Source: a virus
DNA: 61,015 nt
IMG/VR virus record: IMGVR_UViG_3300023184_000131
Location: 1 to 61,015 of that record
Reading direction: 5' to 3' (one strand)
Within the stretch, counting starts at the first letter, position 1. Each line of letters starts with the position of its first letter. The notes under the pieces were generated by a model. It had not been told where the DNA came from. It did no database searches and worked only from the letters and a program-made list of their open reading frames with translations. Position numbers and translations under genes: made by a program. Positions 784 to 21,200 of this stretch are shown here, piece after piece.

Positions 784-800
784 TTTAAGAAAAAAAACAT

Positions 801-956
801 ATGACTGAACAAAAAATTGAAATCATTGATACGTGGGCAGGTGCCGCAAAAGAATTTTTTAGACAGTTTGGAGCTGTTTCTACTTTATTGATAATCGTGA
901 TGTCTATTGGTCAGTGTAGCGGATGTATTGATATTTATCGTTTATTAGGAAAATGA
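801..956 (+). CDS. Small single-pass membrane protein, unknown function
   Basis: A 51-residue open frame sits between two tRNA genes. After a soluble, mixed-charge N-terminus of about 24 residues comes one hydrophobic segment (about residues 25-38, GAVSTLLIIVMSIG), then a short tail with two cysteines (QCSGC) and a basic end. This is the pattern of a small inner-membrane protein. The ribosome-binding site is poor, an A-rich leader with AAGAAA. It is flanked 17 bases upstream by tRNA-Asn and 7 bases downstream by tRNA-Arg, so it would be translated from the tRNA precursor transcript. I do not recognise a family. Its length and position make it plausible but unproven. Confidence 0.5.
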   Translation: MTEQKIEIIDTWAGAAKEFFRQFGAVSTLLIIVMSIGQCSGCIDIYRLLGK

Positions 957-963
957 TGTATGT

Positions 964-1040
964 GCCCCGTTAGCTCAGTGGATCAGAGCAAACCGTTTCT
1001 ACCGGTCAGGTCGGGGGTTCGAATCCCTCACAGGGCGCCA
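964..1040 (+). tRNA. tRNA-Arg (anticodon UCU)
   Basis: The acceptor GCCCCGT (964-970) pairs with ACAGGGC (1030-1036) with one C-A mismatch at the fifth pair, followed by GCCA. The D arm is GCTC/GAGC. The anticodon loop TTTCTAC carries TCT at 998-1000, reading AGA. The T loop TTCGAAT is canonical. AGA is heavily used in the phage genes here. Confidence 0.92.
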
Positions 1041-1067
1041 TTTACAAACAATCATTAGGTTATATAT

Positions 1068-1256
1068 ATGTTAAAAAAAACAAAACAGAATACTGACGAA
1101 GATGATAAAGTGATTGTTAAAGTTTTAAGAAAGTTAATCAATCCACATAAAATATGTGATTGTTGCTTAAACGATTGGTCTAATTTTACTCTTCAAGAAG
1201 AAAAGCTTTGTGATGAGTGCTATGGAGAAAAGTATGGCAAGACCAAAGTGGGATGA
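1068..1256 (+). CDS. Small protein with two CxxC motifs
   Basis: A 62-residue protein with a charged N-terminal half and, in the C-terminal half, CDCC (about residues 31-34) and CDEC (about 49-52). The four-cysteine arrangement suggests a single zinc-ribbon or treble-clef knuckle that could bind nucleic acid or a protein partner. It begins 27 bases after tRNA-Arg, with AGG in the leader, and its last 23 bases overlap the start of the dCMP deaminase gene in another frame, implying translational coupling. I cannot assign a family; the zinc-binding role is inferred from the cysteine spacing alone. Confidence 0.65.
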   Translation: MLKKTKQNTDEDDKVIVKVLRKLINPHKICDCCLNDWSNFTLQEEKLCDECYGEKYGKTKVG

Positions 1257-1644
1257 AATATGGATGACGTTAACGCTGATTATAGCAGAGCGTTCGCGAG
1301 ATCCAAGATTGAAAGTTGGCAGTGTTATTGTCACCGAAGACAACACTTCTGTTCTTGCTGTTGGATATAACGGAGATGAAGTAAGTGGAACTAATAAACC
1401 TGATAGCTTGGAGCCGGGTAAAAGTGGGTTCATCCACGCAGAAGCAAATGCGCTGATAAAAATGAATTTTAGCGATCACAGAAATAAAAAAATGTATCTT
1501 ACACACTCACCATGTGCTGTCTGTGCTCGTATGATTGTAAATGCTGGTATTAAAAAAGTAATATATTCTAATCAATATCGTGACACAAAAGGTTTAGAAA
1601 TATTGACTAAGTGCGGCGTCCAAGTTGAACAATTTGAGAATTGA
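1234..1644 (+). CDS. dCMP deaminase-like zinc cytidine/deoxycytidylate deaminase
   Basis: A 136-residue member of the CDA fold. It has the zinc site H68-A-E70 with the catalytic glutamate, and P93-C94-A-V-C97, both as in dCMP deaminases, as well as the family's early 'DPRLKVGSVIV' and 'GYNGD' segments. It would convert dCMP to dUMP to feed thymidylate synthesis for AT-rich phage DNA. I chose the ATG at 1234 because GGAG sits six bases upstream; a GTG at 1210 and ATGs at 1213 and 1222 are in frame but lack a good site. It overlaps the preceding zinc-knuckle gene. No thymidylate synthase is visible nearby. T4 carries a functional counterpart (cd). Confidence 0.92.
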   Translation: MARPKWDEIWMTLTLIIAERSRDPRLKVGSVIVTEDNTSVLAVGYNGDEVSGTNKPDSLEPGKSGFIHAEANALIKMNFSDHRNKKMYLTHSPCAVCARMIVNAGIKKVIYSNQYRDTKGLEILTKCGVQVEQFEN

Positions 1645-1657
1645 TATTGGTAATAAT

Positions 1658-1921
1658 ATGTTTGAAATAACCAAAGAACAACAAAAGAAAATTGATTTAT
1701 GGCTTAAGCAACAAGATAAAATTGCTCTTGAAAGTCAAAAGCTGTTAATGTCTGAGGAAGACTTTGAAGACCTGACTTCTGGAGGAAAATATCCATATTG
1801 TGGCGCTATTAACGGCGGTGTACAATACATATTTATTCCAACTTCAGTTGGAACAATCTGCAAAATAAAACATTCTTTGACTAATAAAGAATTAGATGTA
1901 ACTGATTACGATAACTGGTGA
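1658..1921 (+). CDS. Hypothetical protein
   Basis: An 87-residue protein beginning MFEITKEQQKKIDLWLKQQ. The first half is a charged, helix-forming stretch; the second half is short and beta-rich with several glycines (GAINGGVQYIFI). It has no signal peptide, membrane segment or recognised motif. I take the ATG at 1658, 13 bases after the deaminase stop; the leader has only GGTAA. The same frame extends upstream to a TTG at 1625 inside the deaminase gene, which I consider unlikely. It sits in the accessory nucleotide/RNA gene group; function unknown. Confidence 0.65.
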   Translation: MFEITKEQQKKIDLWLKQQDKIALESQKLLMSEEDFEDLTSGGKYPYCGAINGGVQYIFIPTSVGTICKIKHSLTNKELDVTDYDNW

Positions 1922-1962
1922 TATTTTACAATCACTTAACTTGAAAATAAAAGGAGAACGAT

Positions 1963-2277
1963 ATGTCTGATAAATACAAAGTAGAACTAAACATTGAACT
2001 TGAACTTCGTTCACGCGATCAAAATGATATGGTTAAATTTAGTAAAGATATTGAAACTAATTTTATTCCACAACATGGCATGGTCGTCATGATTGATGAG
2101 ATTCCTTTCCGTGTAAAGACAATTGCTTTGGCAAATTTGAGTGGGCTAAAACACGTTGCCTATCCAGTAACTACCAAGGGAATTAAATTTGTTTCTCGTA
2201 GTGACAACTCAAAAGGCAAAGATTGGTTCAGTTCACGAACTGAACACTTCAAGAAACTTGGTTGGAAATCAAATTGA
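1963..2277 (+). CDS. Hypothetical protein with strong ribosome-binding site
   Basis: A 104-residue protein preceded by an excellent AAGGAG at the right distance. It is mixed alpha/beta with a basic C-terminus (SSRTEHFKKLGWKSN). It contains no cysteine pair, no membrane segment and no motif I recognise. It is the last gene before a clear intrinsic terminator at 2291, so it closes the transcript that starts with the tRNA cluster. The strong initiation site suggests appreciable expression. Function unknown. Confidence 0.75.
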   Translation: MSDKYKVELNIELELRSRDQNDMVKFSKDIETNFIPQHGMVVMIDEIPFRVKTIALANLSGLKHVAYPVTTKGIKFVSRSDNSKGKDWFSSRTEHFKKLGWKSN

Positions 2278-2290
2278 GATAAAGTTCTTA

Positions 2291-2313
2291 ACTGCCCTTT
2301 GAAGGGCAGTTTT
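2291..2313 (+). terminator. Rho-independent terminator
   Basis: ACTGCCCTT and AAGGGCAGT form a perfect 9-base stem around a TG turn, followed by TTTT. It directly follows the gene ending at 2277 and precedes the next gene at 2340. Confidence 0.85.
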
Positions 2314-2339
2314 GCTAAATACCGAAAGGCTTGCTATTC

Positions 2340-2828
2340 ATGGAACTAAAAATCAAATCACTACACGACGGCAATGAAGTATCACTGACCGAAGTGCTAA
2401 AAGTTAGGACAAACGCAAAATACAGAGTTGGTTGCGATAGCATCAACACAAAAGATACTACAATCTTTATCACTACTCTTATTGGCATTCACCCAAACCG
2501 TTCTGGTGCTTTTATTCTTTATCAAAAAGAAAAAATACCTAAAATACGAGAAACGCAAATTCGTCTTTGGCAAGAAGTAGAAAAAGCAATTGCCTTTGCG
2601 ACACTGCTAAAAAAACAATATTTAGTAGATATTGAGTGTATAGATTTTGATTTGAATCCAAATCTAACGTATGAATCCAGTCGTCTTGTATCAAGTGCTG
2701 TTGGATATGCAGAATCAATGGGTTTCAAGGCAGTTTGTAAGCCTCACTCAATTTATGCCATTCATGCAGCAGATTTTATTGCTCATAAAAGCAGTGAACA
2801 CTTCAAGCGAAAAGGTATTATTACATGA
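2340..2828 (+). CDS. YkuK-like (DUF458) RNase H-fold protein
   Basis: A 162-residue protein resembling the YkuK/DUF458 family, which has a ribonuclease H-like fold. Visible features are an early 'YRVGCDS' strand with an aspartate after a basic segment, a strand 'TTIFITTLIG', and a later 'VDIECIDFDLNP' acidic strand, with 'AIHAADFIAHK' near the C-terminus supplying another possible acidic ligand. The family's substrate is not firmly known; nuclease action on RNA or structured nucleic acid is inferred from the fold. I chose the ATG at 2340 with GAAAGG ten bases upstream over a TTG at 2331. Its stop overlaps the start of the SpoU gene (ATGA), so the two are coupled. Confidence 0.65.
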   Translation: MELKIKSLHDGNEVSLTEVLKVRTNAKYRVGCDSINTKDTTIFITTLIGIHPNRSGAFILYQKEKIPKIRETQIRLWQEVEKAIAFATLLKKQYLVDIECIDFDLNPNLTYESSRLVSSAVGYAESMGFKAVCKPHSIYAIHAADFIAHKSSEHFKRKGIIT

Positions 2829-3352
2829 GTTCTGAAATGCGAACTGAAACAAGGAAAGAAAGATATAATAAAAAAGTCAACTCTTCTTTTAAATATCCAG
2901 TAGAGATTGCTTGTGTAAATTTCAAACACGAACCAAACATTGGATATGTCATTCGCGCAGCTGCTTGTTTTGGATCTCCAGTAGTGAATATTATTGGAGA
3001 TTGTCCGTCGGATAAAGTTCTAAAAATGCTTTCAGGAACCACAAGCGATTTCATCAAGCTTCAAAAGTTTTCAAATCCACATATGTTTTTAGAATATTGT
3101 CGCACGAATGATATCAAGGTTGTATCCGCAGAACTAACTGAAAATTCAAGGAGTTTATATGATTACACTTTTCCTAAAAACAATAAAATATGCATTGTCG
3201 TTGGTAACGAACAAACAGGTGTACCAGTCGACATACTTCAACACAGTGATATTGTCCAGATTCCAATGCCAGGAGTAGGATATTGTTTGAATACAGCTAT
3301 GAGTGCAAATATTATGTTGTTCGAATACACAAAACAGCAAGCAATGACTTGA
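2825..3352 (+). CDS. SpoU/TrmH-family RNA 2'-O-methyltransferase
   Basis: A 175-residue SPOUT enzyme. The three SpoU motifs are present: motif 1 NIGYVIRAA (N38, R44), motif 2 IVVGNEQTGVP (around 124-134, with the glutamate), and motif 3 IPMPG...LNTAMSAN (146-162, with N156), which build the knotted AdoMet site. Family members methylate the 2'-OH of tRNA or rRNA ribose. With four phage tRNAs and a SPOUT enzyme together, tRNA protection or tuning is plausible, but the target is unproven. It lacks the N-terminal substrate domain of larger rRNA enzymes. It overlaps the YkuK-like gene by four bases. A phage promoter begins at its 3' end (3349). Confidence 0.92.
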   Translation: MSSEMRTETRKERYNKKVNSSFKYPVEIACVNFKHEPNIGYVIRAAACFGSPVVNIIGDCPSDKVLKMLSGTTSDFIKLQKFSNPHMFLEYCRTNDIKVVSAELTENSRSLYDYTFPKNNKICIVVGNEQTGVPVDILQHSDIVQIPMPGVGYCLNTAMSANIMLFEYTKQQAMT

Positions 3353-3377
3353 CAAAAACATAGATCAGTGTTATACT
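3349..3377 (+). promoter_or_regulatory. Strong sigma70-type promoter ahead of tRNA-Leu
   Basis: TTGACA (3349-3354), a 17-base spacer and TATACT (3372-3377) are seen directly. The start would be near 3384, four bases before tRNA-Leu. A perfect inverted repeat GATCAGT-gttat-ACTGATC (3363-3381) covers the -10 box, with the same 7-5-7 geometry as the repeat in the promoter at 550. An operator is inferred. Confidence 0.78.
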
Positions 3378-3387
3378 GATCTTGTTT

Positions 3388-3472
3388 GGCTCCTTGGCGG
3401 AATTGGTAGACGCATTCGACTTAAAATCGAACACTTTCGGGTATGCCGGTTCGATTCCGGCAGGAGCTACCA
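3388..3472 (+). tRNA. tRNA-Leu (anticodon UAA)
   Basis: An 85-base class II tRNA with a long variable arm. The acceptor GGCTCCT (3388-3394) pairs with AGGAGCT (3462-3468) with one G-U pair, followed by ACCA. The anticodon arm is TTCGA-CTTAAAA-TCGAA with TAA at 3422-3424, reading UUA. The T arm is GCCGG-TTCGATT-CCGGC. Confidence 0.96.
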
Positions 3473-5047: not shown

Positions 5048-6364
5048 ATGAAAAAAATATTCGTGTTAGATACAAGTGTTTGTTTGGCAAATGCCAATGC
5101 TGTTTACAGCTTTGGAAAAGAGGATGTTTACATCCCATTGAAAGTCCTTGAAGAAGTAGATAAACACAAAAATCGCCAAGACGGCGTCGGTCAGAATGCT
5201 CGCAGTTTTATCAAGATTCTTGATGAATTACGCGAAAGAGGCTCGTTACAAGAGGGGGTAAGACTCCAGAAAGGCAAAGGTCTACTAAGATCAGTTGCAT
5301 TAACCCCATCAGCGTTCCCGGTAGATTTAGATCTAAGTGTTCCAGACCATGTCATAATCGCTACTGCTTTTGGTGTAGCAAAATTAAATGAAGATAAAAA
5401 AATAGTTGTAGTTTCACGCGATATTAATATGCGTGTAATCTGCGATTCAATCGGTCTAGGTTCTGAAGGATACGACGCCAACCAAGTAATCTCCAGCAGC
5501 TCAGAACTTTATTCTGGTTTCGCAGACATAGTTGTTGATGATGAGTTCATTGAACGCTTGTATAAAGGTGAGTTGATGCAACTTGATGATAAACAAGCCA
5601 ACAACTTATTCCCACATCAGTTTCTAACGCTTATCTCAAATAAGAATGCAAACAAAACAGCATTGGCAAGGTTTATAAACAAAGAATCGCCATTGCGTCG
5701 TCTTCCTGAATTCAAGGGTCGTAATCAGATTCAAGGTATAGAAGCAAGAAATAGAGAACAAAGCTTTGCTATGGACCTTTTGATGGACCCAGCAATTCCA
5801 ATTGTAACTCTTGTAGGTAAAGCTGGTTCCGGCAAAACACTTACAGCAATTGCTGCCGGTATGGAACAGATGTTAAAGAAAAGTGTATACACTCGTCTAA
5901 TAGTGTCACGTCCGGTTCAACCAATGGGAAGAGATATTGGTTTCTTACCAGGAACGATGGAAGAAAAAATGTTACCATGGTTAAGCCCAATTCAAGACAA
6001 TCTTCAGTTTTTGCTTGGTAACGATAAGGCAATGCTTGCAGAATATATGGCTCGCGGTCAAATTGAAATTGAAGCTCTAACGTATATTCGCGGTCGCTCT
6101 ATCGCCAAAGCTTTTATGGTTATAGACGAAGCACAAAACCTTTCAGCGCACGAACTTAAAACGATTGTTACTCGCGTTGGCGAAAATACCAAAATCGTTT
6201 TAACGGGCGATATAGAACAGATTGATAATGTTTATGTCAATGATACAAGCAATGGTCTTGCCTATGCTGTTGAAAAGTTTAAAGAAACTCAATTAGCAGG
6301 TCATGTAAGCTTGGTTAAGGGTGAACGTTCTGCTGTCGCAACTCTCGCAGCTAAAATTCTTTGA
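5048..6364 (+). CDS. phoH: PhoH-family ATPase fused to a PIN domain
   Basis: A 438-residue two-domain protein. The N-terminal PIN nuclease domain (about 1-150) opens with FVLDTSV (D8) and has further acidic strands near D100 and D125. The C-terminal PhoH ATPase has Walker A GKAGSGKT (257-264), a 'VSRPVQPMGRDIGFLPGT' segment typical of PhoH, Walker B VIDEAQN (358-364) and 'LTGDIEQID'. This is the PhoH2 architecture, linked in bacteria to RNA unwinding and cleavage. PhoH proteins are common in marine and T4-like phages, where their role is unsettled. The leader is A-rich with weak GTTGG. It opens a forward operon running to the glycan genes. Confidence 0.95.
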   Translation: MKKIFVLDTSVCLANANAVYSFGKEDVYIPLKVLEEVDKHKNRQDGVGQNARSFIKILDELRERGSLQEGVRLQKGKGLLRSVALTPSAFPVDLDLSVPDHVIIATAFGVAKLNEDKKIVVVSRDINMRVICDSIGLGSEGYDANQVISSSSELYSGFADIVVDDEFIERLYKGELMQLDDKQANNLFPHQFLTLISNKNANKTALARFINKESPLRRLPEFKGRNQIQGIEARNREQSFAMDLLMDPAIPIVTLVGKAGSGKTLTAIAAGMEQMLKKSVYTRLIVSRPVQPMGRDIGFLPGTMEEKMLPWLSPIQDNLQFLLGNDKAMLAEYMARGQIEIEALTYIRGRSIAKAFMVIDEAQNLSAHELKTIVTRVGENTKIVLTGDIEQIDNVYVNDTSNGLAYAVEKFKETQLAGHVSLVKGERSAVATLAAKIL

Positions 6365-6372
6365 GGTGAAAT

Positions 6373-6621
6373 ATGGACGATAGAGAATTAGAAGAAAAAA
6401 TTGTGGAAAAAGAAAATCCACTAAAAGAATTGTTTATAAGATATATTGGTGAAAAACTAAAACCAGAAAACGGAGAAATAACCGTTGAGATGTGTGTTGA
6501 GGTTTTGGCAGAAGAATTCCCAGACTTCTTATTGCTTGTAGCACAAGAGAATTTTCTTAGAGGGTACAGACAGTGTCTTGCTGATACGGAGCACGTAGAA
6601 AATGAACAAAAATCACAATAG
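6373..6621 (+). CDS. Small acidic hypothetical protein
   Basis: An 82-residue, strongly acidic, mostly helical protein beginning MDDRELEEKIVEKENPL. A GAGGTGA site sits across the phoH stop just ahead of the ATG, so it is coupled to phoH. The C-terminal half (VLAEEFPDFLLLVAQENFLRGYRQ) could form an amphipathic helix pair. Its last 20 bases overlap the start of the zincin gene. It has no recognised motif; it may be a partner of one of its two neighbours, but nothing in the sequence proves this. Confidence 0.75.
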   Translation: MDDRELEEKIVEKENPLKELFIRYIGEKLKPENGEITVEMCVEVLAEEFPDFLLLVAQENFLRGYRQCLADTEHVENEQKSQ

Positions 6622-7282
6622 ATTTTTTAAATCTTCACAACAAGTAAGGCTAAAGGAACAAACTATATTCGGGAATATCAATGTTATTGAACAGCAAGAG
6701 CTACCAGATAATATCAGTTTGAATAATATTTTAAAAAAATTACAAATTGTAATTCCCGAACATTTTGTTCAAAATTTAGATGGTATATACATCGGTGATT
6801 ATGACTTTCTTTCAAAAAGAGACTTAAACGCTCTTTATAAAGATGGAGTTATTTATGTTGCTCCTGAGCAAGATGATGAACAAGATGTATATGAAGATAT
6901 AGTACATGAAATAGCGCATTGCGTTGAAGAAACTTATGGAATGGATATCTATGAAGACGGAAAGATCGAAGATGAATTTTTACGCAAAAGACGAGGTCTG
7001 CTTGACATCTTGAAGGCATACGGCTATAATCAGGCGTCGGATGCATCTTACGGGAATACAGAATACAACAAAAAGTTTGATGAATTTTTATATTTAAGTG
7101 TTGGATATCCAATTCTTACTCAATTGACTGCGAGTTTATTTGTATCTCCGTATGGTGCGACTTCCTTAAGAGAATATTTTGCCAACTGCTTTGAGGAATA
7201 TTTTGCACGTCGTCAATATGGCCATGTTAAAAATATTTCTCCTGCTGTCTATGAAAAAATAGAACTTTTATTAGGAATCTAA
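6602..7282 (+). CDS. Putative zinc metallopeptidase (HExxH gluzincin-like)
   Basis: A 226-residue protein with the zinc-binding helix IVHEIAHCVEE (H102, E103, H106) and a downstream helix SLREYFANCFEEYF (E191) positioned like the third, glutamate ligand of gluzincins. The arrangement, with little between the ligands but a helical insert (residues 120-180), resembles minimal gluzincins of the anthrax-lethal-factor type. There is no signal peptide, so it should act in the cytoplasm or be packaged in the virion. The N-terminal 50 residues are basic and unassigned. It overlaps the preceding small gene by 20 bases and is 13 bases upstream of the nuclease. Substrate unknown; peptidase activity is inferred from the motif. 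Confidence 0.75.
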   Translation: MNKNHNRFFKSSQQVRLKEQTIFGNINVIEQQELPDNISLNNILKKLQIVIPEHFVQNLDGIYIGDYDFLSKRDLNALYKDGVIYVAPEQDDEQDVYEDIVHEIAHCVEETYGMDIYEDGKIEDEFLRKRRGLLDILKAYGYNQASDASYGNTEYNKKFDEFLYLSVGYPILTQLTASLFVSPYGATSLREYFANCFEEYFARRQYGHVKNISPAVYEKIELLLGI

Positions 7283-7295: not shown

Positions 7296-8105
7296 TTGTT
7301 TGAAACAGAAAAGAAAAAACCAGATTATGTTAGCTATTCTTCAATCAAAGATTGGAAATTTTGTCCACAGTATTATAAAATTACTCGTATTGATGGTATC
7401 CCTTCAGGTGGGGATTCAATCCATACGGCTTTCGGAAAAGCTGTTCATTCAACAAGCGAAAAAATCTTCAAACAGGAAAAGGAAGGAACCTTTGACTATG
7501 CAAAAGACTTTTCTCTTAACTTCCAGAAAGAAATCTCTGCTTTATCAAAGCAAACACGTGAAGTCTTATCTGAAAAAGATTTAAAAGATTTTGATGTTCA
7601 AGGTCGTGAACTGGTTGAACTCGTTTATCCAGCCGCACAGCAATATTTTGGCGAATTTGAATACGTCTCTGCAGAAGAAGATCTCATGGAAGAGATTGAA
7701 GAATACAAAATTGATGATTATAAATACAAAGGGTATATTGACCTTGTCTTGAAGACAAAAGATGGTAAGTACAATATTATTGACTGGAAAACTTGCAGTT
7801 GGGGATGGGAAGCACAAAAGAAAAATGATGCAATGGTAAATTATCAATTAACTTACTACAAGCATTTCTTTGCAAGAAAGCATGGCATCCCAGCCGACAA
7901 GATTGAAACGCATTTTGGTCTGTTAAAGAGAACTGCAAAGAAAGATAAAGTTGAGTTATTTCGTGTCACCAGTGGCGAAAAAAAGGTAAACAATGCGCTT
8001 AAACTTTTACAAGAATGTGTGCATAATGTTGACCACGAAAGGTTTATAAAAAATAAACTATCATGCTCTAAGTGTTCTTTTCATAGAACACCACACTGTC
8101 CTTGA
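7296..8105 (+). CDS. PD-(D/E)XK nuclease of the Cas4/AddB (RecB-like) type
   Basis: A 269-residue nuclease. Motifs in order are: the N-terminal SYSSIKDWKFCPQYY block with C23; GKAVH with H51; YIDLVLK with D149; IIDWKT with D163 and K165; and YQLTYY with Q184. The C-terminus has CSKC (C257, C260) and C268. These four cysteines match the iron-sulfur staple of Cas4 and AddB nucleases. It would degrade or trim DNA ends. The start is TTG at 7296 with AGAGG six bases upstream; no ATG lies before the conserved N-terminus. It is 9 bases ahead of the first glycosyltransferase. Cas4 in a CRISPR sense is unlikely, as no array or cas1 is visible. Confidence 0.88.
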   Translation: MFETEKKKPDYVSYSSIKDWKFCPQYYKITRIDGIPSGGDSIHTAFGKAVHSTSEKIFKQEKEGTFDYAKDFSLNFQKEISALSKQTREVLSEKDLKDFDVQGRELVELVYPAAQQYFGEFEYVSAEEDLMEEIEEYKIDDYKYKGYIDLVLKTKDGKYNIIDWKTCSWGWEAQKKNDAMVNYQLTYYKHFFARKHGIPADKIETHFGLLKRTAKKDKVELFRVTSGEKKVNNALKLLQECVHNVDHERFIKNKLSCSKCSFHRTPHCP

Positions 8106-8114: not shown

Positions 8115-9380
8115 ATGAATAAAAAAATCAAAATACTAACCATAAGCGATCATCCATTATCGCCATCTGGTGTTGGCACGCAGACAAAATATATGATTGA
8201 AGCCATGTTAAAAACTGGAAAATATCAATTTATTTGTCTGGGCGGCGCTGTAAAACATAACGATTATCGCGTTCAAAAGACCCAAGAATGGGGTGATGAC
8301 TTCGTTATCATTCCAGTGGATGGTTATGGAACGCAAGATCTAATTCGTCAATTATTGAAGCAGCAAAAACCAGATATTCTTTGGTTTATGACTGACCCAC
8401 GTTTTTATAGTTGGCTTTGGGAGATAGAAGACGAAGTACGTTGTAATGTACCAATGGTGTATTACCATGTTTGGGATAACAAGCCTTATCCAAAATTTAA
8501 TAAACCATATTACATGTCTAATGATGTTATTGCTACTATTTCCAAGGTAACTGATGATATTATACGTAATGTTTCTCCTGAAGTAGAATGTCATTATATT
8601 CCACACGCTGTTGATATGGAAGTATTCAAGAAATACCCAGCAGAACAAGTTGAAGCGTTCCGTAGAAAAGTATTTCCAAGAGAACAAAACAGTAAGTTCA
8701 CAGTATTTTGGAACAGCAGAAATGCACGTCGCAAAAATCCTGGTAGCGTTATTTGGTGGTTTAATGACTTCCTAAATATTGTAGGAAAAGATAAAGCAAA
8801 GTTATTGATGCATACAGATCCAAAAGATGTTCATGGTCCGGATCTTGAAGCTATACTTAATGAGCTTGGATTAATTAACGGCGAAGTAATGTTTTCTCCG
8901 AGTAGAATTAATCCACAAGAGCTTGCTGCCATGTATAACATGTCTGACGTAACTGTTAGTTTGAGTGACGCTGAAGGGTTTGGTCTTTCTACGCTAGAAA
9001 GTCTTGCTTGCGAAACTCCTATAATTGTTCCAAAAACAGGTGGATTGCAGGAACAGGTAAAAGACGATGATGGTAATTTCTTTGGAGTTGAATTGCCTGT
9101 ACCTTCTCAGATGATTGTTGGTTCTCAAGAAGTTCCATATATCTACGAAGACAGAGTGGCAAAAGAAGATTTTGTCAATGCTCTGTTGAAGCTATTCAAC
9201 ATGCCTGCAGAAGAAAGAGCTGCATTAGGTACTGCAGGTAGAAATCACTTGCAAGTTAACTATAATATGTCAATTCTAATGAATAAATGGGATGAACTCT
9301 TTACGAAAATTCACAACGAAAGAGGCTCTTGGGAAAATAGAAAAATGTATGATCGCTGGGTACTAAAGGAGATTGCATGA
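8115..9380 (+). CDS. GT-B glycosyltransferase (family 4-like)
   Basis: A 421-residue GT-B enzyme. The N-terminal Rossmann domain starts KIKILTISDHPLSPSGVGTQ with the glycine-rich acceptor loop. The C-terminal donor domain contains VFWNSRNARRKNP, a basic donor-phosphate site, and the E287-GFGLSTL-E295 (EX7E) signature of retaining GT4 enzymes. It would transfer a sugar from a nucleotide-sugar donor, retaining the anomeric configuration. A strong GAGGA precedes the ATG. It overlaps the next GT-B gene by four bases (ATGA). The donor and acceptor cannot be read from the sequence. It heads the phage glycan operon. Confidence 0.93.
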   Translation: MNKKIKILTISDHPLSPSGVGTQTKYMIEAMLKTGKYQFICLGGAVKHNDYRVQKTQEWGDDFVIIPVDGYGTQDLIRQLLKQQKPDILWFMTDPRFYSWLWEIEDEVRCNVPMVYYHVWDNKPYPKFNKPYYMSNDVIATISKVTDDIIRNVSPEVECHYIPHAVDMEVFKKYPAEQVEAFRRKVFPREQNSKFTVFWNSRNARRKNPGSVIWWFNDFLNIVGKDKAKLLMHTDPKDVHGPDLEAILNELGLINGEVMFSPSRINPQELAAMYNMSDVTVSLSDAEGFGLSTLESLACETPIIVPKTGGLQEQVKDDDGNFFGVELPVPSQMIVGSQEVPYIYEDRVAKEDFVNALLKLFNMPAEERAALGTAGRNHLQVNYNMSILMNKWDELFTKIHNERGSWENRKMYDRWVLKEIA

Positions 9381-10615
9381 AAAAGAAAGTATTAGTCAAA
9401 GGACCGGCATTATCACTTTCAGGGTATGGCGAGCAGGCAAGATTTGCTCTACGCTCTTTAAGAGGTCAAGAAGATAAATTTGACATATTTCTGGTCAATA
9501 CTCCTTGGGGAAAAACTGGCTGGGTAACTGAAGAATCAGAAGAAACACAATGGATGAGTCATCTGATGGCAAAAACCCAAGAACACATCCAACAAAAAGG
9601 TGTGTTTGATATTAGTATACAGGTGACAATTCCAAACGAATTTGAAAAAATTGCACCCGTAAACATTGGTTATACGGCAGGTATAGAAACAACAAAAGTA
9701 TCTCCACAATGGATTGATAAAGCAAAATTGATGGATAAAATTATTGTTGTTTCAAATCATTCAAAGCAAGTGTTTGATTTAACTGAATATAAATTACAAA
9801 ATCCACAAAATGGACAAGTAATAGACTTCAGAAACACAACTCAAATTGAAGTTGTTCACTTTCCTGTTAAAAAAATAGAGCCAAGAGAACTCAATCTGGA
9901 ATTGCAAACTGATTTTAATTTCCTATCAGTTGTTCAGTGGGGACCAAGAAAGAATGCTGAAGCAACAATCGTTTCTTTCTATGAAGAATTCAAAAACGAT
10001 GAAAATGTTGGTCTTGTTATGAAAGTTAACCAGGCAAAGAATTGCATCACGGACAGAATGCTTTGTGAACGACGCCTAGAAGCAATTAAAAAGAATTACA
10101 GCGATGCAAAGTGCAAAGTCTATCTTCTCCATGGTAATATGACTGAAGAGGAAATGGCTGGATTATACCGTCATCCAAAAATAAAAGCTATTATCTCTAC
10201 TACGCATGGTGAAGGTTTTGGTCTTCCACTATTTGAAGCTGCATGTGCTGGTCTTCCTGTTCTCGCTCCCAAGTGGAGTGGTCACGTTGATTTTCTCATG
10301 GCTCCAATAAAAGAAGATGGCAAAGTAAAAATGAGAAATCATTTCACCGCAATTGATTTTGAACTTGGTGCTGTAAATAAAGAAGCAGTATGGGAAGGCG
10401 TAATTCAAGCCGACTCTCAGTGGTGTCATGTCAAGAATGCAAGTGTTAAAGATGCAATGAGAAGTGTATTTAAAAATCTTCCAACACCAATTGCAAGGGC
10501 TAAAAAACTCCAAGAATATGTATTAGAAGAATTTTCAGAACAAAAGCAAAAAAACAAATTTATTGAAGTATTGAATGGAAAACAAAATGAATCAGAAAAC
10601 ATCATCCTACTTTAA
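9377..10615 (+). CDS. GT-B glycosyltransferase, second copy
   Basis: A 412-residue GT-B enzyme. It shares the layout of the preceding gene: an N-terminal KGPALSLSGYGEQARFALRSL acceptor-side loop and a C-terminal donor site with VVQWGPRKN followed by E279-GFGLPLF-E287 (EX7E). Sequence outside the motifs differs strongly, so the two are old paralogs or separate acquisitions and could add successive sugars. It overlaps the upstream gene by four bases, and its end overlaps the next glycosyltransferase start by 29 bases. Base composition is like the PhoH region; the AT-rich shift begins with the next gene. Confidence 0.93.
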   Translation: MKKKVLVKGPALSLSGYGEQARFALRSLRGQEDKFDIFLVNTPWGKTGWVTEESEETQWMSHLMAKTQEHIQQKGVFDISIQVTIPNEFEKIAPVNIGYTAGIETTKVSPQWIDKAKLMDKIIVVSNHSKQVFDLTEYKLQNPQNGQVIDFRNTTQIEVVHFPVKKIEPRELNLELQTDFNFLSVVQWGPRKNAEATIVSFYEEFKNDENVGLVMKVNQAKNCITDRMLCERRLEAIKKNYSDAKCKVYLLHGNMTEEEMAGLYRHPKIKAIISTTHGEGFGLPLFEAACAGLPVLAPKWSGHVDFLMAPIKEDGKVKMRNHFTAIDFELGAVNKEAVWEGVIQADSQWCHVKNASVKDAMRSVFKNLPTPIARAKKLQEYVLEEFSEQKQKNKFIEVLNGKQNESENIILL

Positions 10616-11633
10616 TTGTAATTTGTTCGAACAAAATATATCTGATTATTCTAATTTTTCTTTTGAACAAGATGAGGTAAAATTAGTAGATAGAATAGAT
10701 ACAAGTAAATTTAAGATTGAAAAAATAAAATATACTTGTTCATTTTATTTTAATTCTAATTTAGATATTTCTAAACCTCTCATTCTTATTCCAACGAAAG
10801 ATAACCTAGAATTAATTGAATTTACTTTAAATAATTTAAAAGCTTTTAAAATAGATGAAATTGCAAATATTTTAGTTATAGATGATAGATCACAAGTTAA
10901 TCATTCTGAAATTTGTAAAAAACATTCTGTAAATTGTTTAAGAGTAGATAATGAAAAAGGTTTTAATTTTTCTATGCTGATTAATATTGGTATTAAATTA
11001 GCTATAGATAAAAATATAGAACATGTTGTTCTTTGGAACAATGATCTCTGGGCAAATTCAGAATCAACGTTACCGATTCTATTAGAAAAACACAGAAAAA
11101 GTAGATCAACAATAACTGGAACCAAATTAATCTATCCACCATTTAAATGGGATGGAAAAGACGAAAGAAAAGACGTTCAAGAGATGTTTGGTTTAACTAA
11201 AACTCACAGAGGAACAATTCAGTTTGGTGGTTCTAATATGATTTTTAATAATCAATTAAACAACTATATGATAGGTCACAGATGTAGATTTTTTGAACCA
11301 TCCGATCCTAGATGCGATATGGATAAGAACGAGATATTCCTAACAGGAGCATTTCAAATAATCAATACATCTTGGTTAAAAGAAACTGGAGGCTTAAATC
11401 CAAGTCTCGCCAAGGCATATCAAGATGTTGATATTTGTTTTAAAGCAGTGAAAGATAAAAAGAAATTGATGTATTTTGGAGAAAATTTAAGCTTTTATCA
11501 CGATGAATCCTTATCACAAACAGATACCAAAGCAAAATTTGATCTTCAGTTTTTATCAGATCAAGTTTTAATGTATAAAATTTGGAATAGAACAGAATTT
11601 GAATTGCACCTTTTAGGAATGTCGCATGAATAA
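10587..11633 (+). CDS. GT-A glycosyltransferase (family 2-like)
   Basis: A 348-residue protein. About 55 N-terminal residues without assignment are followed by a GT-A fold: LILIPTKDN, then the nucleotide-binding ILVIDDRS, then VVLWNNDLWA, where NND stands at the DxD metal-site position. A C-terminal block 'LTGAFQIINTSWLKETGGLNPSLAKAYQDVDICFKA' is typical of GT2 enzymes, with the acceptor-side ED/QD pair. I chose the ATG at 10587 with GGA upstream; the frame also opens at 10575. It begins inside the preceding gene, and its codons are markedly AT-richer than those before it. Confidence 0.88.
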   Translation: MNQKTSSYFNCNLFEQNISDYSNFSFEQDEVKLVDRIDTSKFKIEKIKYTCSFYFNSNLDISKPLILIPTKDNLELIEFTLNNLKAFKIDEIANILVIDDRSQVNHSEICKKHSVNCLRVDNEKGFNFSMLINIGIKLAIDKNIEHVVLWNNDLWANSESTLPILLEKHRKSRSTITGTKLIYPPFKWDGKDERKDVQEMFGLTKTHRGTIQFGGSNMIFNNQLNNYMIGHRCRFFEPSDPRCDMDKNEIFLTGAFQIINTSWLKETGGLNPSLAKAYQDVDICFKAVKDKKKLMYFGENLSFYHDESLSQTDTKAKFDLQFLSDQVLMYKIWNRTEFELHLLGMSHE

Positions 11634-12318
11634 ACTGTGTTTATTCATTCATTATGACGAGAATCACTGCTACACAGAAGATGATATAAAATATATTAAT
11701 AATCTTTCTAAAAATTTTAAAACTGTAACAATTTTAACAAGTAATTCTAATAAGATAGAAAACTATTCTTTTGATTGTGAAATTGAATATATTTTAAATA
11801 TACCAAATTTTGGATATGATTTTGGAAAGATTCAATATTTCTTGAGAGAAAAAGATATTACAAACATTGAATGTTGTTATATTTTTAATAATTCTTGTTT
11901 ACTTGTAAGAGATCTTGAACCTTCTATCTCTTATATGGATTCCAAAAATTTAGATTTTTGGTCATACACAACTTCACTAGCAAGAGCTTTTCATACTCAA
12001 TCTTATTTTATGTATTTTTCAAATCCTGCATTAAAAGAATTTATTTCTTTATTACGAGAAAAAGATCCACATGGAAATAAATATGGTTTTGAAGAAGTTG
12101 TAAATAATTTAGAAATACAAATATTGAGACACATGAATTTAAAAAAATTTAAATGTGGAAGTTATTTGCATACACACAAAATTTTTGGTGATAAAGACTC
12201 TACAGTATTTCATGCTGACAAATTATTGGTTTTAAATCAATATTTTCCTTTTATAAAAAAGAAAGTCTTTACAAATTTTAAAACTTTTGATAGAAAGTAT
12301 CTTGAAAGTTTAATATAG
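11626..12318 (+). CDS. RgpF-like (rhamnan synthesis F) sugar-transfer protein
   Basis: A 230-residue protein matching the rhamnan synthesis F pattern. It has an N-terminal LCLFIHYDE strand, then NFGYDFGKIQYFL, IFNNSCLLV, LDFWSYTTS and QSYFMYFSNPALKEF in the family's order. RgpF proteins build rhamnose-glucose and related surface polysaccharides, probably as glycosyltransferases. Here the protein is shorter than bacterial RgpF and lacks extra domains. AGGA lies seven bases ahead of its ATG, which overlaps the upstream gene by eight bases. It is very AT-rich. In a phage it may extend a short glycan on a virion or host surface target. Confidence 0.75.
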   Translation: MNKLCLFIHYDENHCYTEDDIKYINNLSKNFKTVTILTSNSNKIENYSFDCEIEYILNIPNFGYDFGKIQYFLREKDITNIECCYIFNNSCLLVRDLEPSISYMDSKNLDFWSYTTSLARAFHTQSYFMYFSNPALKEFISLLREKDPHGNKYGFEEVVNNLEIQILRHMNLKKFKCGSYLHTHKIFGDKDSTVFHADKLLVLNQYFPFIKKKVFTNFKTFDRKYLESLI

Positions 12319-12327
12319 AAATATTTT

Positions 12328-12927
12328 ATGAATTCACATATTATTACTTTTATTATACCAAGTATAGGTAGAAAAACTTTATTAAATTCTCTTAATTCTT
12401 TACTCTTACAGACCAATAAAAATTGGGAATGTATTGTTGGTTTTGATGGATTGAATAAAGATCAATTAAATCTTGACCTACCAGAAGATTATAGAATTAA
12501 ATATATATATCTACCTAAAAAAACAGGAATCCTTAAAGAAAATGGTGGTCATAGTAAAGCAGGTAGCGTAAGAAATCAATTATTTAATATGGTTAATACA
12601 GAATGGATTGCATTCTTAGACGATGATGATTCTTTAACTGAAAATTATGTTGATGTTTTTTTAAAAGAAATAGAAAATAATCTTTTAGATTGTTGTATTT
12701 TTAAAATGATATATAAAGATGGTCTTGTTATACCTAGACAACAAACAAATACTCTAGAAGTAGGAAATGTTGGTATATCGTTTTGTTGTAAAAATAGTTT
12801 TATAAAAAACAATAATATATTATTCGAATCATCTGAAGTAGAAGATTTTAATTTTATAAAAAAAATTATTTTCTTTGGTGGGACAATTTATTTTTCAAAT
12901 CATATAACATATAAAGTAAACCATTGA
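12328..12927 (+). CDS. GT-A glycosyltransferase (family 2), short
   Basis: A 199-residue GT2 enzyme. It opens with TFIIPSIGRKTLLNSLNSLL, has the uridine-binding region CIVGFDG, a GSVRNQLF helix, and the metal site AFLDDDDSLTENY (DDD). At 199 residues it is at the short end for GT2 and keeps little beyond the nucleotide-sugar-binding half, so it may need a partner. The leader has no obvious Shine-Dalgarno sequence, only AT. It lies in the most AT-rich part of the window (8 G/C in the 60 bases 12661-12720). Substrate unknown. Confidence 0.88.
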   Translation: MNSHIITFIIPSIGRKTLLNSLNSLLLQTNKNWECIVGFDGLNKDQLNLDLPEDYRIKYIYLPKKTGILKENGGHSKAGSVRNQLFNMVNTEWIAFLDDDDSLTENYVDVFLKEIENNLLDCCIFKMIYKDGLVIPRQQTNTLEVGNVGISFCCKNSFIKNNNILFESSEVEDFNFIKKIIFFGGTIYFSNHITYKVNH

Positions 12928-12961
12928 TATTATATAGATATACAATTTTAAAGGAAATAAA

Positions 12962-13600
12962 ATGAAAAGTTATATAGAACCATTATGTGATATAGCAAAA
13001 TCATATAAAATAAAAAATATATATGATATAGGAAGTAGAGATGGAGATGATGCAAATTATATTAGTACAACGTTGGGAGTACAAGAAGTACATATTTTTG
13101 AACCAAATCCCATTTTGTCTAAAAAAATAAAAGAAAAATATAATAAATTTTTTATTAATGAAATTGCTTTATCAAATTATGATGGATATTCTCAATTTTA
13201 TCAAGTTTCAGATACATGTTCACTGGATCACCAAGGTGTTAGTTCTTTAAAGAATAGAACAGATGATTTTTATATAAATAAAACAAATAAAATTGATGTA
13301 AAAGTTTGTAAAATGTCAACATTTTTAAAAAACAATAATTTAAATTTTATAGATTTAGTAAAAATAGATGTTGAAGGATTAACATACGAAGTCCTACAAG
13401 GATTTGAAGAGTATTTAGATAAAATAAAAATACTTCACTTAGAAGCGGAACATTATAAATATTGGGAAAACCAATATTTATATGAAGATATAGAAAATTT
13501 ATTAAAAAATAAATTTGAAAATAAATTTATGCATTATTATTATAATAATACTCAATCTGATAGTGTTTGGATAAATAAATCAATAAATATTGGAGAATAA
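12962..13600 (+). CDS. FkbM-family AdoMet methyltransferase
   Basis: A 212-residue FkbM methyltransferase. It has motif I IYDIGSRDGDDA, motif II VHIFEPNP, the 'FINEIALSNYDG' strand and the family's strongest marker LVKIDVEGLTYEVLQGF. FkbM enzymes O-methylate sugars and polyketides; beside glycosyltransferases the usual role is capping or decorating a glycan. AAGGA precedes the ATG. Of the genes here it is among the most AT-rich, with runs of AAA, AAT and TTA codons. It is followed at once by the cupin gene. Confidence 0.92.
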   Translation: MKSYIEPLCDIAKSYKIKNIYDIGSRDGDDANYISTTLGVQEVHIFEPNPILSKKIKEKYNKFFINEIALSNYDGYSQFYQVSDTCSLDHQGVSSLKNRTDDFYINKTNKIDVKVCKMSTFLKNNNLNFIDLVKIDVEGLTYEVLQGFEEYLDKIKILHLEAEHYKYWENQYLYEDIENLLKNKFENKFMHYYYNNTQSDSVWINKSINIGE

Positions 13601-13601
13601 T

Positions 13602-13940
13602 ATGACTGAAACAAGACCATGGGGAACTTTTCAAGTTCTTCACGAAGAAGAAAAATGTAAAGTAAAGAAACTGATTGTAAAACCAGGACAAAAATTTAGC
13701 CTACAAACTCACGAAAATAGAAGTGAGCTTTGGACTGTTCTTCAAGGAATAGGAGAAGTAACATTAGACGATGATATTTCTCCAACACAATCTGGAATGA
13801 TTTATTTCATTCCAGCCGGCGTGAAACACAGATTAGAAAATATGGGCACAGAAGATCTTGTTGTGATAGAAGTTCAAACAGGCTCTTCGTTTGCAGAAGA
13901 AGATATAGTAAGATACGAAGATTCTTACGGAAGGGTATGA
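13602..13940 (+). CDS. Cupin, mannose-6-phosphate isomerase type II-like
   Basis: A 112-residue single-domain cupin. It starts TRPWGTFQVL, then KKLIVKPGQKFSLQTHENRSELWTV (cupin motif 1 with His and Glu metal ligands), a GMIYFIPAGVKHRLEN segment (motif 2 with His) and an 'EVQTG' end. This is the profile of the C-terminal isomerase domain of GDP-mannose pyrophosphorylase/phosphomannose isomerase. It could interconvert mannose-6-P and fructose-6-P to feed the adjacent glycosyltransferases. Start at 13602 with GGAG seven bases upstream; the frame is open to 13590. Composition returns toward the phage average here. Confidence 0.85.
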   Translation: MTETRPWGTFQVLHEEEKCKVKKLIVKPGQKFSLQTHENRSELWTVLQGIGEVTLDDDISPTQSGMIYFIPAGVKHRLENMGTEDLVVIEVQTGSSFAEEDIVRYEDSYGRV

Positions 13941-14417: not shown

Positions 14418-14818
14418 CACTTTTAACGTTGGTAATATTATTAGCAATCTCAACCACTCTATTAGGGTGGTTTTGCTATAAATTGGTATTTAGATTAAAT
14501 TTTGTTTCTGATAACTTAATTGAACTATATGGAAGATTAGATGAATTTGATCAACATATAAATTTTATACACGAACTTGAAATGTATTATGGTGATGAGA
14601 CATTAAAAAATCTCATTCGTCATTCAAGAGATTTTCGTAATTATATGAAAAAGTATAAAGAAGTTATGGAATTATTAGAAGGCGAAGAGATTATTGAAGA
14701 GGATATAAATGACGAAGCAAATGACTCCGAAGATTCCGAAGACTCCGAACAAGATGAGGAGAGCAAAGAAAAATTCGCCTCAACAGCCGGAAAAGCTATA
14801 TTTTACCCAGGTTCATGA
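14414..14818 (+). CDS. Membrane-anchored acidic protein
   Basis: A 134-residue protein. One N-terminal membrane segment (about residues 2-25, LLTLVILLAISTTLLGWFCY) is followed by a helical charged middle (30-90) and an Asp/Ser/Glu-rich tail (EDSEDSEQDEES). Its last 110 bases overlap the late sigma factor gene in another frame, and the acidic tail lies wholly in the overlap. There is no recognised family. An i-spanin or membrane-anchored regulator is conceivable, but no lysis gene is next to it. Confidence 0.72.
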   Translation: MTLLTLVILLAISTTLLGWFCYKLVFRLNFVSDNLIELYGRLDEFDQHINFIHELEMYYGDETLKNLIRHSRDFRNYMKKYKEVMELLEGEEIIEEDINDEANDSEDSEDSEQDEESKEKFASTAGKAIFYPGS

Positions 14819-15461
14819 AGACGCCATAGTAACATATGCTCGTACAAAAGACGCGAAGCTAAGACAAGAATTATATAGAAAACTTATTGGACCAACGTTT
14901 AATGAGATGGTAAACAAAATAGTTTTTACCTATAAATTCAACAATCTTCCAAACATTGATGAGCTAAAAGAAGAATGTAAAATTTGGATCACTACAATTT
15001 TAGATAAATTTGATCCATCAAAAGGTTCAAAAGCGTTTTCTTATTTTAGCGTTATTACCAAAAATTGGTTTATTCACAAAGTCAAAAAAGTAAGCCGCCA
15101 GAATAAAAAAGAATTATTTCTTGATGATGCAGAAAATCAAAAAGAATTAGATTACGATAATCTAGTTGTGCACAACGAGACAGATGTCAAAAGAGAAAGT
15201 GAAGAATTCTGGAATCATCTTTGGGGAGAAATAGAAGGTTGGAAAAAACTTGATCTCAAAGTGAACGAGAGAAAAGTTCTTGATGCAGTCGTCATTCTAT
15301 TAAAAGAACCAGATTCAATTGAAATCTTTAATAAAAAAGCAATTTATTTATATGTGCGTGAGATAACAGATTTGAATACCAAACAAGTTGTAAACAATCT
15401 TAATAAGATTAGACAAAAATATAAAGAATTCAAAAAAACTTGGGATGATGGAGAAATTTAA
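14709..15461 (+). CDS. Late-transcription sigma factor (T4 gp55-like)
   Basis: A 250-residue protein resembling T4-type late sigma factors. The core region (about 60-125: 'INELKEE'-like helix, DKFDPSKGSKAFSYFSVITKNWF) matches sigma region 2, with the polymerase-binding and -10 recognition helices. It lacks a region 4, as gp55 does. It is longer than T4 gp55 (185 residues), with a basic, proline-containing N-terminal extension. Start at 14709 has AGAGG six bases upstream; an ATG at 14754 is in frame but lacks one. It lies directly upstream of the virion genes and probably redirects host polymerase to late promoters such as the CTATTTATA boxes noted here. Confidence 0.82.
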   Translation: MTKQMTPKIPKTPNKMRRAKKNSPQQPEKLYFTQVHEDAIVTYARTKDAKLRQELYRKLIGPTFNEMVNKIVFTYKFNNLPNIDELKEECKIWITTILDKFDPSKGSKAFSYFSVITKNWFIHKVKKVSRQNKKELFLDDAENQKELDYDNLVVHNETDVKRESEEFWNHLWGEIEGWKKLDLKVNERKVLDAVVILLKEPDSIEIFNKKAIYLYVREITDLNTKQVVNNLNKIRQKYKEFKKTWDDGEI

Positions 15462-18247: not shown

Positions 18248-21200
18248 ATGAGAAATCCAGAACAAAAAAACATACTTGCGACGAGTTTTAGCGTTGATTT
18301 ATCTACTGTAGACAAAAAAGTAGATAAATTAGTTAAATATTTAAAAAATTGCGATATAGATTTAAAAGATCTTGGTAGAGATTTTTTAAACTTTGACCCC
18401 ACTTACAAAACAATCATAAATTCATTAGACAAGAGAAAGTATAAAGAAAGTTTATCAACTCTTGTAAGTAATATATATTTAAAAAGATTTCAAGAAACAA
18501 AATCTAAATTAATAAGTCAAAGGATGATGTCTTATCAAGACCTTCCTTTTCCTGAACCAATGGATGATTTCGGCTCAAGATTTGATGCCTTTGCAGCAAC
18601 CAATACAGACCCAAATAATACTATTTTATCTTTGCTTGGAGTGAAACCATATAAAGATTTAAAGGTTGATATTTTTGAAGAAATAGAAATAAAAACATAT
18701 TTGGATAATGTTGCAAGTGCATCTTACGATTATAATAATTTAAATTTTTTATTAACAAAATTAGACTCTATAACAAATTCACAAATAAGCTCAGATTCTT
18801 CATTTTTCGGAAGTTCTGAAGTATCATCTATAAATTATTCAAAAGAAATAAGAGAAAAAATATTATTTGTTAAAAGCTCTATTTCATCCTCCAATCCAGA
18901 AGAACAAAATATAATATATAATTTACTTGAAAAAATTCCCATTCTAAGAACAGCTGACAATCTCACTGATCAATATATAAACAGCAACGCAACAGACAAA
19001 ATATTTCCTGCAGGTGCAGAAATAGATGTTTTCCGCTATTACTCTAGAGAAGATATAGCTAACGTTGTTGGAGAAAAATTATTTATTGATCAAACAGAAA
19101 GCAACGATGTTGAATATGAACCAAAAATAATAGAAAAAGCAAGAATAAGATTGGTTGATTTTTTAATCAGAACTGAAATTAAAAAATCATTGCAAGAGAA
19201 GTTATGTTCTTTTGAATTTTTAAAAGATTTTCGTTCAAAATATGATTATTATAACTTTGTTGAACAAAAACTTTTTTCTTCTTCTGAATCTAAAAATGTA
19301 AAAAAAGAAAATTTATTTTTTAGAATAACATTTTTGAGACAAACCGAAGAAGTTATTCTTGAACAAAAACAAGAGCTTACTTCAAATTTAAACGTTGAAT
19401 TTGTTAATAAACAATTTTTAAAATTTGAAAGTCCATTTGGCTCTATTGATAGAAGCAATAAATTTGTTGCCATAATTGGCGGTTCAGATTTAATACAAGA
19501 TAAATCATCTTTTCATTTTTTTAATCCAACTATATTAACAATTCTATCTGATATAAATTACATAGATTCAAATATTTTTGATATTGATCCATTTTATTGC
19601 CCAACTCCACAATCATTAGACGAAAAAACAATAATTGAAAGAGAGAAATACCAAAATGATCAAGTCATACAGGATGCATCCCCGTTATCAAAGAATAAAA
19701 ACCTTGTAGAATCAAATGCACAAGCGTTTAATTATATTAATTTTCCAAGTTTATATTTTATACCAAATAATTTTCCGGACGCTATTTCTTTCTATAAATC
19801 AATAGAAATAAAATTAAGTCGCAATATGACAGAGAACCTGATACTAGAAAATAGTAAATATTACTATGAGTCTAGTTCAGACACACCATCCGCAGCACTA
19901 ATAAGAGATCCAAATTCTAATAAAATGTTCAAAGAAGCATTGCTGAATAATGGATTTTACGGTCTTTATGAGGCTAGAAAAGATTCATTTTCCGATCCAA
20001 CCTCTATCCAGAAAATTATAGATAAACTCGGCGGTATAAGTGTTCAACAAGGTATTGAAAGTTTAAGTCAAGTACAAGATGTTATCTTTGCTAGAACAAA
20101 TTTATCTTGTTTATTAAAAGAGTTTCAAACATGTTTTCTCCCAAAAGTTGCAAATTGTAGAGATATCCTTAGAGGATTCAGATTTTCAGAATTAGAAAAT
20201 ATATTCAATAAAGCATTTCCTGAAAGTCTTTATGTGGAATTATATAAAGATATTAATCAATTTAAAATTGATAACTTAAAAGACGAAAGAGAAAAAAAAC
20301 TTCTTGAGGAAATCAGAGATTTAGAAAGAGCAATTCAAAATAATGAAAGAAAAAGAATTGTTTTTAGCCAACTAGACAAAAGAAAAGACCCAGGCGAAGC
20401 ATTAGATTTCGCAGATGATAGGGTTCTTAATACCGGAGATGATATTAATTCTACGTTGCAGGAAGCGTATGAATCAAAATTAAAACAATATAAAGATTTA
20501 AAATTAAATCAACAATCTTCTTCGTTAACCGATTTGGATAAAATAAGAGCACGAAAAGATATGCAGCTAGAAGAACTAAAAATGATTGATGATTTTTTAG
20601 ATTTGCTAGAAGTAAACTATGGAATAAATACAGATATTTTATGCAACATAGTAGATTTGTTCAATATTAGTCCTATGCTATTTTCAATACAGCTGCCACA
20701 ATTACCAGAAATTGATATATTTTTAGATTTAAAAATTAGTTTAGATCTAGCAATAGTTCAAATTATTTTTGACAGTATTGTTGCTTTTATAATAAAAATA
20801 TTACAAGAATTGTTAACTTGTGGTGGCATAAAAAACTTAATAGCTGCAGCTTTAACCGGTGAAGCAAACGGTAGTGTCACAGGTACTTCTCTTGCAGCAT
20901 TGAATCAATTAGCAAGAGGTAATTTTGTATTAGATGATTTCATTAGCAGTAATCCGCAAATAGATCCTGTTGCCTATACAAAATCATTTGTAAATATTGC
21001 TAAAACATTAAATCCTCCGATTGCAATAGAGCAAAACTCACAACTTCAAATCAACGTAGATTTGGGAGCAGCAGGAAGTGCAAGTTCGTTATCAAAATCA
21101 AAAACTTTACAAGTTTTAAATACAGCAAGAAGCTCTGCTACCACTGAAGTTGAGATACAACAATCTCTTACAGGATTAGTCGCAGAATTATCGAGAATAA

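Follow-up and report, generated by a model that had tools for sequence, protein, structure and literature searches.

A conserved glycosyltransferase pair beside exchangeable sugar-gene cassettes in T4-like phages

In this study, we analysed a glycan assembly locus at positions 8115–13940 of a virus fragment from IMG/VR (record IMGVR_UViG_3300023184_000131; its 61,015 bases are called the window here), which comes from a myovirus whose genes include those for a baseplate wedge protein and for long tail fibres. Four of the seven tract genes encode glycosyltransferases, two each of the GT4 and GT2 families; the others specify a marginally assigned RgpF-like protein, a methyltransferase of the FkbM family and a cupin of the phosphomannose-isomerase type. 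Closely related phages carry different blocks of genes between the second GT4 gene (GT4B) and the cupin gene, an exchange which the alignments place practically beyond dispute, while GT4B and its neighbour GT4A form a fixed pair. The locus is best read as a serotype-like exchange locus, in which the product would be expected to differ chemically from one cassette type to another. We propose, at about even chances, that the fixed pair and the exchangeable cassette cooperate in the host cytoplasm to assemble an oligosaccharide and cap it, with a virion protein as the likely acceptor.

Borders and block exchange of the cassette

DNA of the window aligns with four related contigs (L003, L004, L005 and L016) at 73–79% identity on both sides of the locus, with 69% for the right-hand stretch of L005. 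In all four, the alignments stop at 10,561–10,570, no more than 55 bp from the 3' end of GT4B, and resume at 13,584–13,597, at the start of the cupin gene, and between these borders only isolated genes match, such as GT2b with L016. The exchange is most clearly seen in L004 and L005, which are 87–92% identical up to position 11,182 in both contigs, then lack any similarity for 7.4 and 8.7 kb and afterwards align again at 83.5%; none of eight cassette genes is common to the two, despite backbone proteins of 92–94% identity. L007 and L138 repeat this pattern at 90.7% backbone identity, and in L003 and L005 the first four cassette genes and the last one are common, with a wholly different middle of three genes in one and five in the other. 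Near-identical phages (34 pairs) have 96% of their cassette genes in common, compared to 22% for pairs at 80–90% backbone identity. Across 125 distinct phages, the 796 proteins encoded downstream of the pair fall into 347 families, of which 226 occur in one locus and the commonest in 39; for contigs without an identified right border 9 kb downstream were counted, so that some non-cassette genes may be included in these numbers. Close relatives thus display conserved flanks around an unrelated central block, as in serotype-type loci. An assembly artefact was ruled out, since identical borders recur in independent contigs.

The features of the locus are as follows, all on the + strand.

5048..6364, +: PhoH-like ATPase, left anchor of the backbone (phrog_2765, 1.5e-105; syntenic in relatives)
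6602..7282, +: putative metallopeptidase, backbone (HExxH-like motif HEIAH; syntenic in 163 loci; no match in the family search)
7296..8105, +: PD-(D/E)XK-type exonuclease, backbone (phrog_1218, 2e-20; syntenic in relatives)
8115..9380, +: GT4A, core GT-B glycosyltransferase (PF00534, 3e-14)
9377..10615, +: GT4B, second core GT-B glycosyltransferase (PF20706, 1.6e-7; 4-base overlap with GT4A)
10570..13590, +: exchange cassette (not aligning to sister phages; guanine–cytosine (GC) content 0.21–0.27)
10575..11633, +: GT2a, cassette gene 1, GT2 glycosyltransferase (PF00535, 4.3e-7; overlaps the 3' end of GT4B)
11626..12318, +: RgpF-like putative glycosyltransferase, cassette gene 2 (PF05045, 4.3e-6, marginal)
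12328..12927, +: GT2b, short GT2 glycosyltransferase, cassette gene 3 (PF00535, 6.4e-14)
12962..13600, +: FkbM-family S-adenosylmethionine (SAM) methyltransferase, putative sugar capping, cassette gene 4 (PF05050, 3.3e-20; TIGR01444, 3.7e-18)
13602..13940, +: type II phosphomannose-isomerase-like cupin, right border in the clade of the window (PF01050, 1.5e-30; TIGR01479, C-terminal part only)
14709..15461, +: late sigma (gp55-like) factor, right-hand backbone anchor (phrog_234, 3.4e-7)

The late sigma gene also comes after the cassette in L003, L004, L007, L016, L023 and others. All seven tract genes are intact open frames in the same direction, with ends that overlap or almost touch, and the genes, coordinates and families given in the initial annotation could be confirmed, with the RgpF assignment marginal. 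Its view of the seven genes as one set has to be replaced: GT4A and GT4B make up a fixed core, the cupin gene marks a border, and the four genes in the middle represent just one out of many cassettes that can be interchanged. A single tight transcript, as it had assumed, is suggested only by the close spacing; no intrinsic-terminator-like site was found within the tract on the + strand. Because GC drops from 0.36 over GT4A and GT4B to 0.21–0.27 over the four middle genes, the tract is not one homogeneous operon. A promoter scan of the window gave counts at the shuffled level and was not used; a perfect TTGACA-17-TATAAT arrangement on the + strand at 7002–7030, inside the putative metallopeptidase gene and upstream of the exonuclease gene and GT4A, is recorded with this reservation.

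Genes with a possible role in DNA exchange were observed in L003, where an HNH-like open reading frame (ORF) lies between the exonuclease gene and GT4A (L003:4541-5185), with an unmatched ORF of the same size at this place in L002, and where a GIY-YIG/NUMOD3 homing endonuclease gene lies near the late sigma gene (L003:16190-16816). The two L003 genes could help to drive recombination at the locus.

The conserved pair and the contents of the cassettes

Related loci were gathered with three probes, namely GT4B, an alignment of GT4A, and the PhoH gene close by. Of these, PhoH provides a set selected independently of the glycosyltransferases, in which 60 loci extend at least 6 kb downstream. GT4A and GT4B are adjacent in 59 of these 60, and the remaining locus carries both in another orientation. 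The order PhoH, putative metallopeptidase, PD-(D/E)XK exonuclease, GT4A, GT4B is retained almost everywhere among the related loci, and since this backbone recurs in more than 100 independent contigs, chance is excluded. Ratios of nonsynonymous to synonymous substitution rates (dN/dS) of 0.10–0.11 indicate purifying selection on both transferases. The search for the gene set in related genomes, suggested by the initial annotation, thereby yielded a conserved GT4 pair with swapped cassettes across the 125 distinct phages.

Both proteins combine a GT-B fold with an E-x7-E motif, which in GT4A reads EGFGLSTLE, and were modelled with a predicted local distance difference test (pLDDT) score of 88 for GT4A and 91.5 for GT4B, the latter with 3oy2 as best solved match. 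The closest solved relative of both, by profile and by fold, is the transferase B736L of chlorovirus NY-2A, and the next-best characterised GT4 folds include the small-molecule enzymes MshA, BshA and trehalose synthases. Flavobacterium phage immuto and Microcystis phage Mel-JY01 likewise have exonuclease, GT4A, GT4B and sugar genes in this order, with the exonuclease gene adjoining the pair in the former and close to it in the latter. Rhodothermus phage RM378 carries a GT4 pair with weaker similarity and without the exonuclease neighbour.

As in serotype-type loci, the central blocks consist of glycosyltransferases, nucleotide-sugar enzymes and capping enzymes. Besides GT2, GT4 and GT11 transferases, they encode UDP-GlcNAc 2-epimerase, UDP-Glc/GDP-Man dehydrogenase, SDR epimerases, DegT aminotransferases, NeuB and cytidylyltransferases, and further sulfotransferases, LicD, PIG-L, radical SAM (radical SAM/B12) proteins and SAM methyltransferases. 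Shared cassette genes display dN/dS values of 0.08–0.26. Members of the NeuB (sialic/nonulosonic acid synthase) family were located at L036:13423-14133 and in relatives, within a cluster present in 14 of the 125 representatives. Phage-encoded glycan assembly, as initially annotated, is supported by these data.

The assignments within the window differ in quality. The RgpF-like protein scores 26.1 bits against a PF05045 cut-off of 25 and covers positions 18–199 of 503, and no relatives of it were found in phage records (tblastn in named phages) or in sister cassettes. Searches of solved structures with this protein and with GT2a alone gave no match, while GT2a has relatives at 40–45% identity in L099, L100 and L023. 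GT2b is the sole cassette gene common to the window and L016 (54% identity). A tblastn search for FkbM in named phages gave no match, and the family was found in 4 of 12 large related genomes. The cupin, 57–79% identical in L003–L005, matches only the isomerase end of the NCBIfam GMP_PMI model and is therefore considered to be without a guanylyltransferase domain; comparison with relatives (the L003 sequence) suggests that its start is the ATG at 13602 rather than the TTG at 13590.

Proteins with multiple membrane segments are missing from the cassettes. No transmembrane-like segments were found in the tract proteins of the window (the cupin lay outside the gene set tested), and none of the 796 cassette ORFs has at least two transmembrane segments, compared to 4 of 1,164 other ORFs of the same loci, a modest contrast in which the absence from the cassette is nonetheless complete. 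Initiating phosphotransferases (Bac_transf) and Wzx-type proteins (Polysacc_synt) are absent from the 12 large related genomes, with controls working, and so is GtrA (PF04138), for which the control gave a signal in 7. The initial statement that the tract lacks a polymerase, flippase or membrane protein consequently extends beyond the window. The flippase, polymerase and initiating transferase of a Wzx/Wzy or ABC export locus were not found, nor was the GtrA flippase-like membrane protein of phage serotype conversion (gtrABC); the glycosyltransferases are instead soluble and membrane-independent, as expected for virion glycosylation.

The acceptor of the glycan

We propose that GT4A and GT4B would act first and place a common reducing-end core on an acceptor brought by the phage, most likely a virion protein, and that the cassette would then extend and cap this core with phage-specific outer sugars. 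In the window, these would be added by the two GT2 enzymes and perhaps the RgpF-like protein, followed by FkbM methylation, and the cupin may help to supply a mannose-derived donor. Exchange of cassettes would keep particle surfaces diverse and could alter adsorption, decay, grazing and recognition by phage-binding factors. Two arguments favour a phage-supplied acceptor: phages of Flavobacterium, Microcystis and Rhodothermus all retain the pair, although no common core is expected in the surface polysaccharides of these hosts, and the locus encodes no step at a membrane. For the virion protein itself the chances are about even. It is preferred over DNA because 11 of 12 large related genomes lack a protein of the thymidylate-synthase/dCMP-hydroxymethylase family (PF00303), and because the exchange of whole multi-gene blocks fits an exposed surface under selection. 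The cytoplasmic acceptor initially favoured, a phage protein or DNA, accordingly stays the better guess, with its DNA part weakened.

A gp23-type capsid protein is encoded in all 12 related genomes, while from the window, being a fragment, no capsid gene is known. In six IMG relatives (L188–L193), an insertion region of 207–244 residues in the gp23-like protein is 23–38% identical in pairwise comparison, compared to 76–86% elsewhere, and is richer in Ser/Thr and Gly than the remaining protein. The insertion may be regarded as a candidate acceptor site; the indication is circumstantial, since exposed loops vary anyway, and N-glycan sequons in it are too few to carry meaning. Possible, although we hold it only tentatively, is a more specific version in which the conserved pair attaches the core glycan to the capsid, possibly to the insertion domain, and recombination of cassettes swaps the outer glycan. 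This would give a widespread T4-like clade true virion serotypes, with sugars of nonulosonic-acid type or sulfated sugars in some lineages, akin to antigenic variation in free virions.

Several points weigh against a virion acceptor. GT4 folds act on lipids and small molecules too, and B736L itself is without a proven acceptor (PMC9614988). That the products of the cassette and of the GT4 pair lie on the same chain is suggested by adjacency, and L078 and L090 carry the pair with less than 1 kb before the next conserved genes and hence almost no cassette, so that the pair has its own function even where a cassette is lacking. The lack of membrane genes would leave room for work at the cytoplasmic face on host lipid-linked glycans, and for the cyanophage and pelagiphage islands of glycosyltransferase genes, host lipopolysaccharide was the target that the authors preferred (PMC7824862, PMC7029224).

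The main alternative, rather unlikely in our view but to be taken seriously, is that the host surface polysaccharide is remodelled from the cytoplasmic side, on lipid-linked O-units or lipid A-core, blocking other phages or avoiding re-adsorption to debris. Beyond the published reading of similar islands (PMC7824862, PMC7029224), the gene content resembles O-antigen loci (GT2, GT4, GT11, NeuB, UDP-GlcNAc 2-epimerase, aminotransferases) and block exchange would track the host serotype, but the 12 large related genomes, searched with working controls, offer neither an initiating phosphotransferase nor a flippase or GtrA, the cassettes no multi-transmembrane protein, and a core pair kept across phages of distant hosts is hard to square with host-specific acceptors.

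Glycosylation of modified bases of the phage DNA, as in T4, RB69 or TET-linked systems, is improbable, even though the phages are T4-like, as judged from gp23, and the pair is located among replication-type genes. No PF00303 protein was found in nine related contigs (124–204 kb), Mel-JY01 or RM378, with good controls and with the provision that the IMG contigs may be incomplete and the window is only a 61 kb fragment; immuto alone has one. A Tet_JBP search gave no match, but its control set was silent and it was not used. Block exchange and up to ten sugar genes also suit a surface structure better, while diverse DNA glycans were reportedly described by Pyle in 2024 (cited in PMC12619734). Slightly less probable still is a glycan that is soluble or secreted, or a small molecule bearing sugar, with no relation to virion, DNA or envelope, which would agree with MshA, BshA and trehalose synthases among the nearest GT4 folds after B736L and with the radical SAM/B12 and sulfotransferase genes; the fold similarity is that of the GT4 family as a whole (13–18% identity), and several sequential glycosyltransferases indicate a chain. 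A passive landing site for passenger genes brought in by homing endonucleases, or a mis-assembly, without a shared pathway, would find support in the HNH-like and GIY-YIG/NUMOD3 genes of L003 and the unmatched ORF of L002 but is very improbable and already largely refuted, given recognisable inserts that are almost wholly sugar enzymes, the dN/dS values of shared cassette genes, whole cassettes retained by near-identical phages and identical borders in independent contigs.

Among further observations in the window, four tRNA genes (Ile-TAT, Asn-GTT, Arg-TCT, Leu-TAA) lie upstream of the locus at 591–3472. Giant ORFs of the structural region (1,200–2,279 residues; 18248–24712, 28377–32066, 32020–38859 and 39912–43514) have no PHROG match, and a tandem gene pair at 54526–56823, both phrog_863 (tail fibre assembly), displays local GC up to 0.48, well above the remaining window. 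Host assignment via genome bins pointed to five unrelated taxa (Pelagibacter, Maricaulis, Flavobacteriales, Marinimicrobia and Halobacteriovorax), and we therefore claim no host. Shine-Dalgarno motifs, counted for 27 of 45 window genes and for 1 of 26 immuto genes, argue against a Bacteroidota host and name none.

Relation to known systems

Bacterial capsule and O-antigen serotype loci (cap, galF-gnd type) possess fixed flanks and a low-GC central block of sugar genes that is swapped by recombination in the flanks. The phage locus is alike in its fixed flanks and exchanged low-GC block of glycosyltransferase and nucleotide-sugar genes; it differs in residing in a phage genome, in lacking genes for a polymerase, a flippase, an initiating transferase and export, and in flanks which include the two core transferases. 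In mycobacteriophages, work by Freeman in 2023 (cited in PMC12619734) reportedly found phage-encoded glycosyltransferases to glycosylate capsid and tail proteins. The process proposed here would be the same, in a different phage group and with a putative acceptor.

In chloroviruses, capsid glycosylation takes place in the cytoplasm and combines a conserved core with outer sugars that vary (PMC5408694, PMC9614988). Together with the capsid and fibril glycosylation of Megavirinae (PMC10117803), they resemble the present locus in virus-encoded machinery, a core with variable outer sugars and methylated sugars. These are, however, eukaryotic viruses with only the GT4 fold in common, and the comparison is one of analogy. 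The immuto and Mel-JY01 loci are only about 32–33% identical and contain other cassette genes, and in the stretch inspected no cupin or late sigma border was seen; in Mel-JY01 an additional gene separates the exonuclease gene from GT4A, and GT4A is split.

Polymorphic phage glycosyltransferase clusters are already published. Pelagimyophages and cyanomyophages carry hypervariable glycosyltransferase islands interpreted as host-surface modification (PMC7029224, PMC7824862), and a monofunctional type II mannose phosphate isomerase (MPI) is reported for cyanophage S-SCSM1 (PMC9602691). These, too, are T4-like marine phages with variable sugar genes. Their host-recognition islands are embedded in the tail-fibre region bounded by VrlC and gp14, whereas the present island is flanked by the fixed GT4 pair on one side and the cupin and late sigma factor on the other, with no tail genes inside. 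The GT4 pair as backbone, the precise borders, the exchange of blocks among close relatives and the lack of membrane genes throughout the population were not found in these three papers.

With the virion as acceptor, the sugar coats of abundant marine phages would be interchangeable and analogous to the serotypes of bacteria, with a defined typing locus. The GT4A–GT4B pair represents a single, constantly present genetic handle for telling whether phage glycosyltransferase islands act on particle, DNA or host surface.

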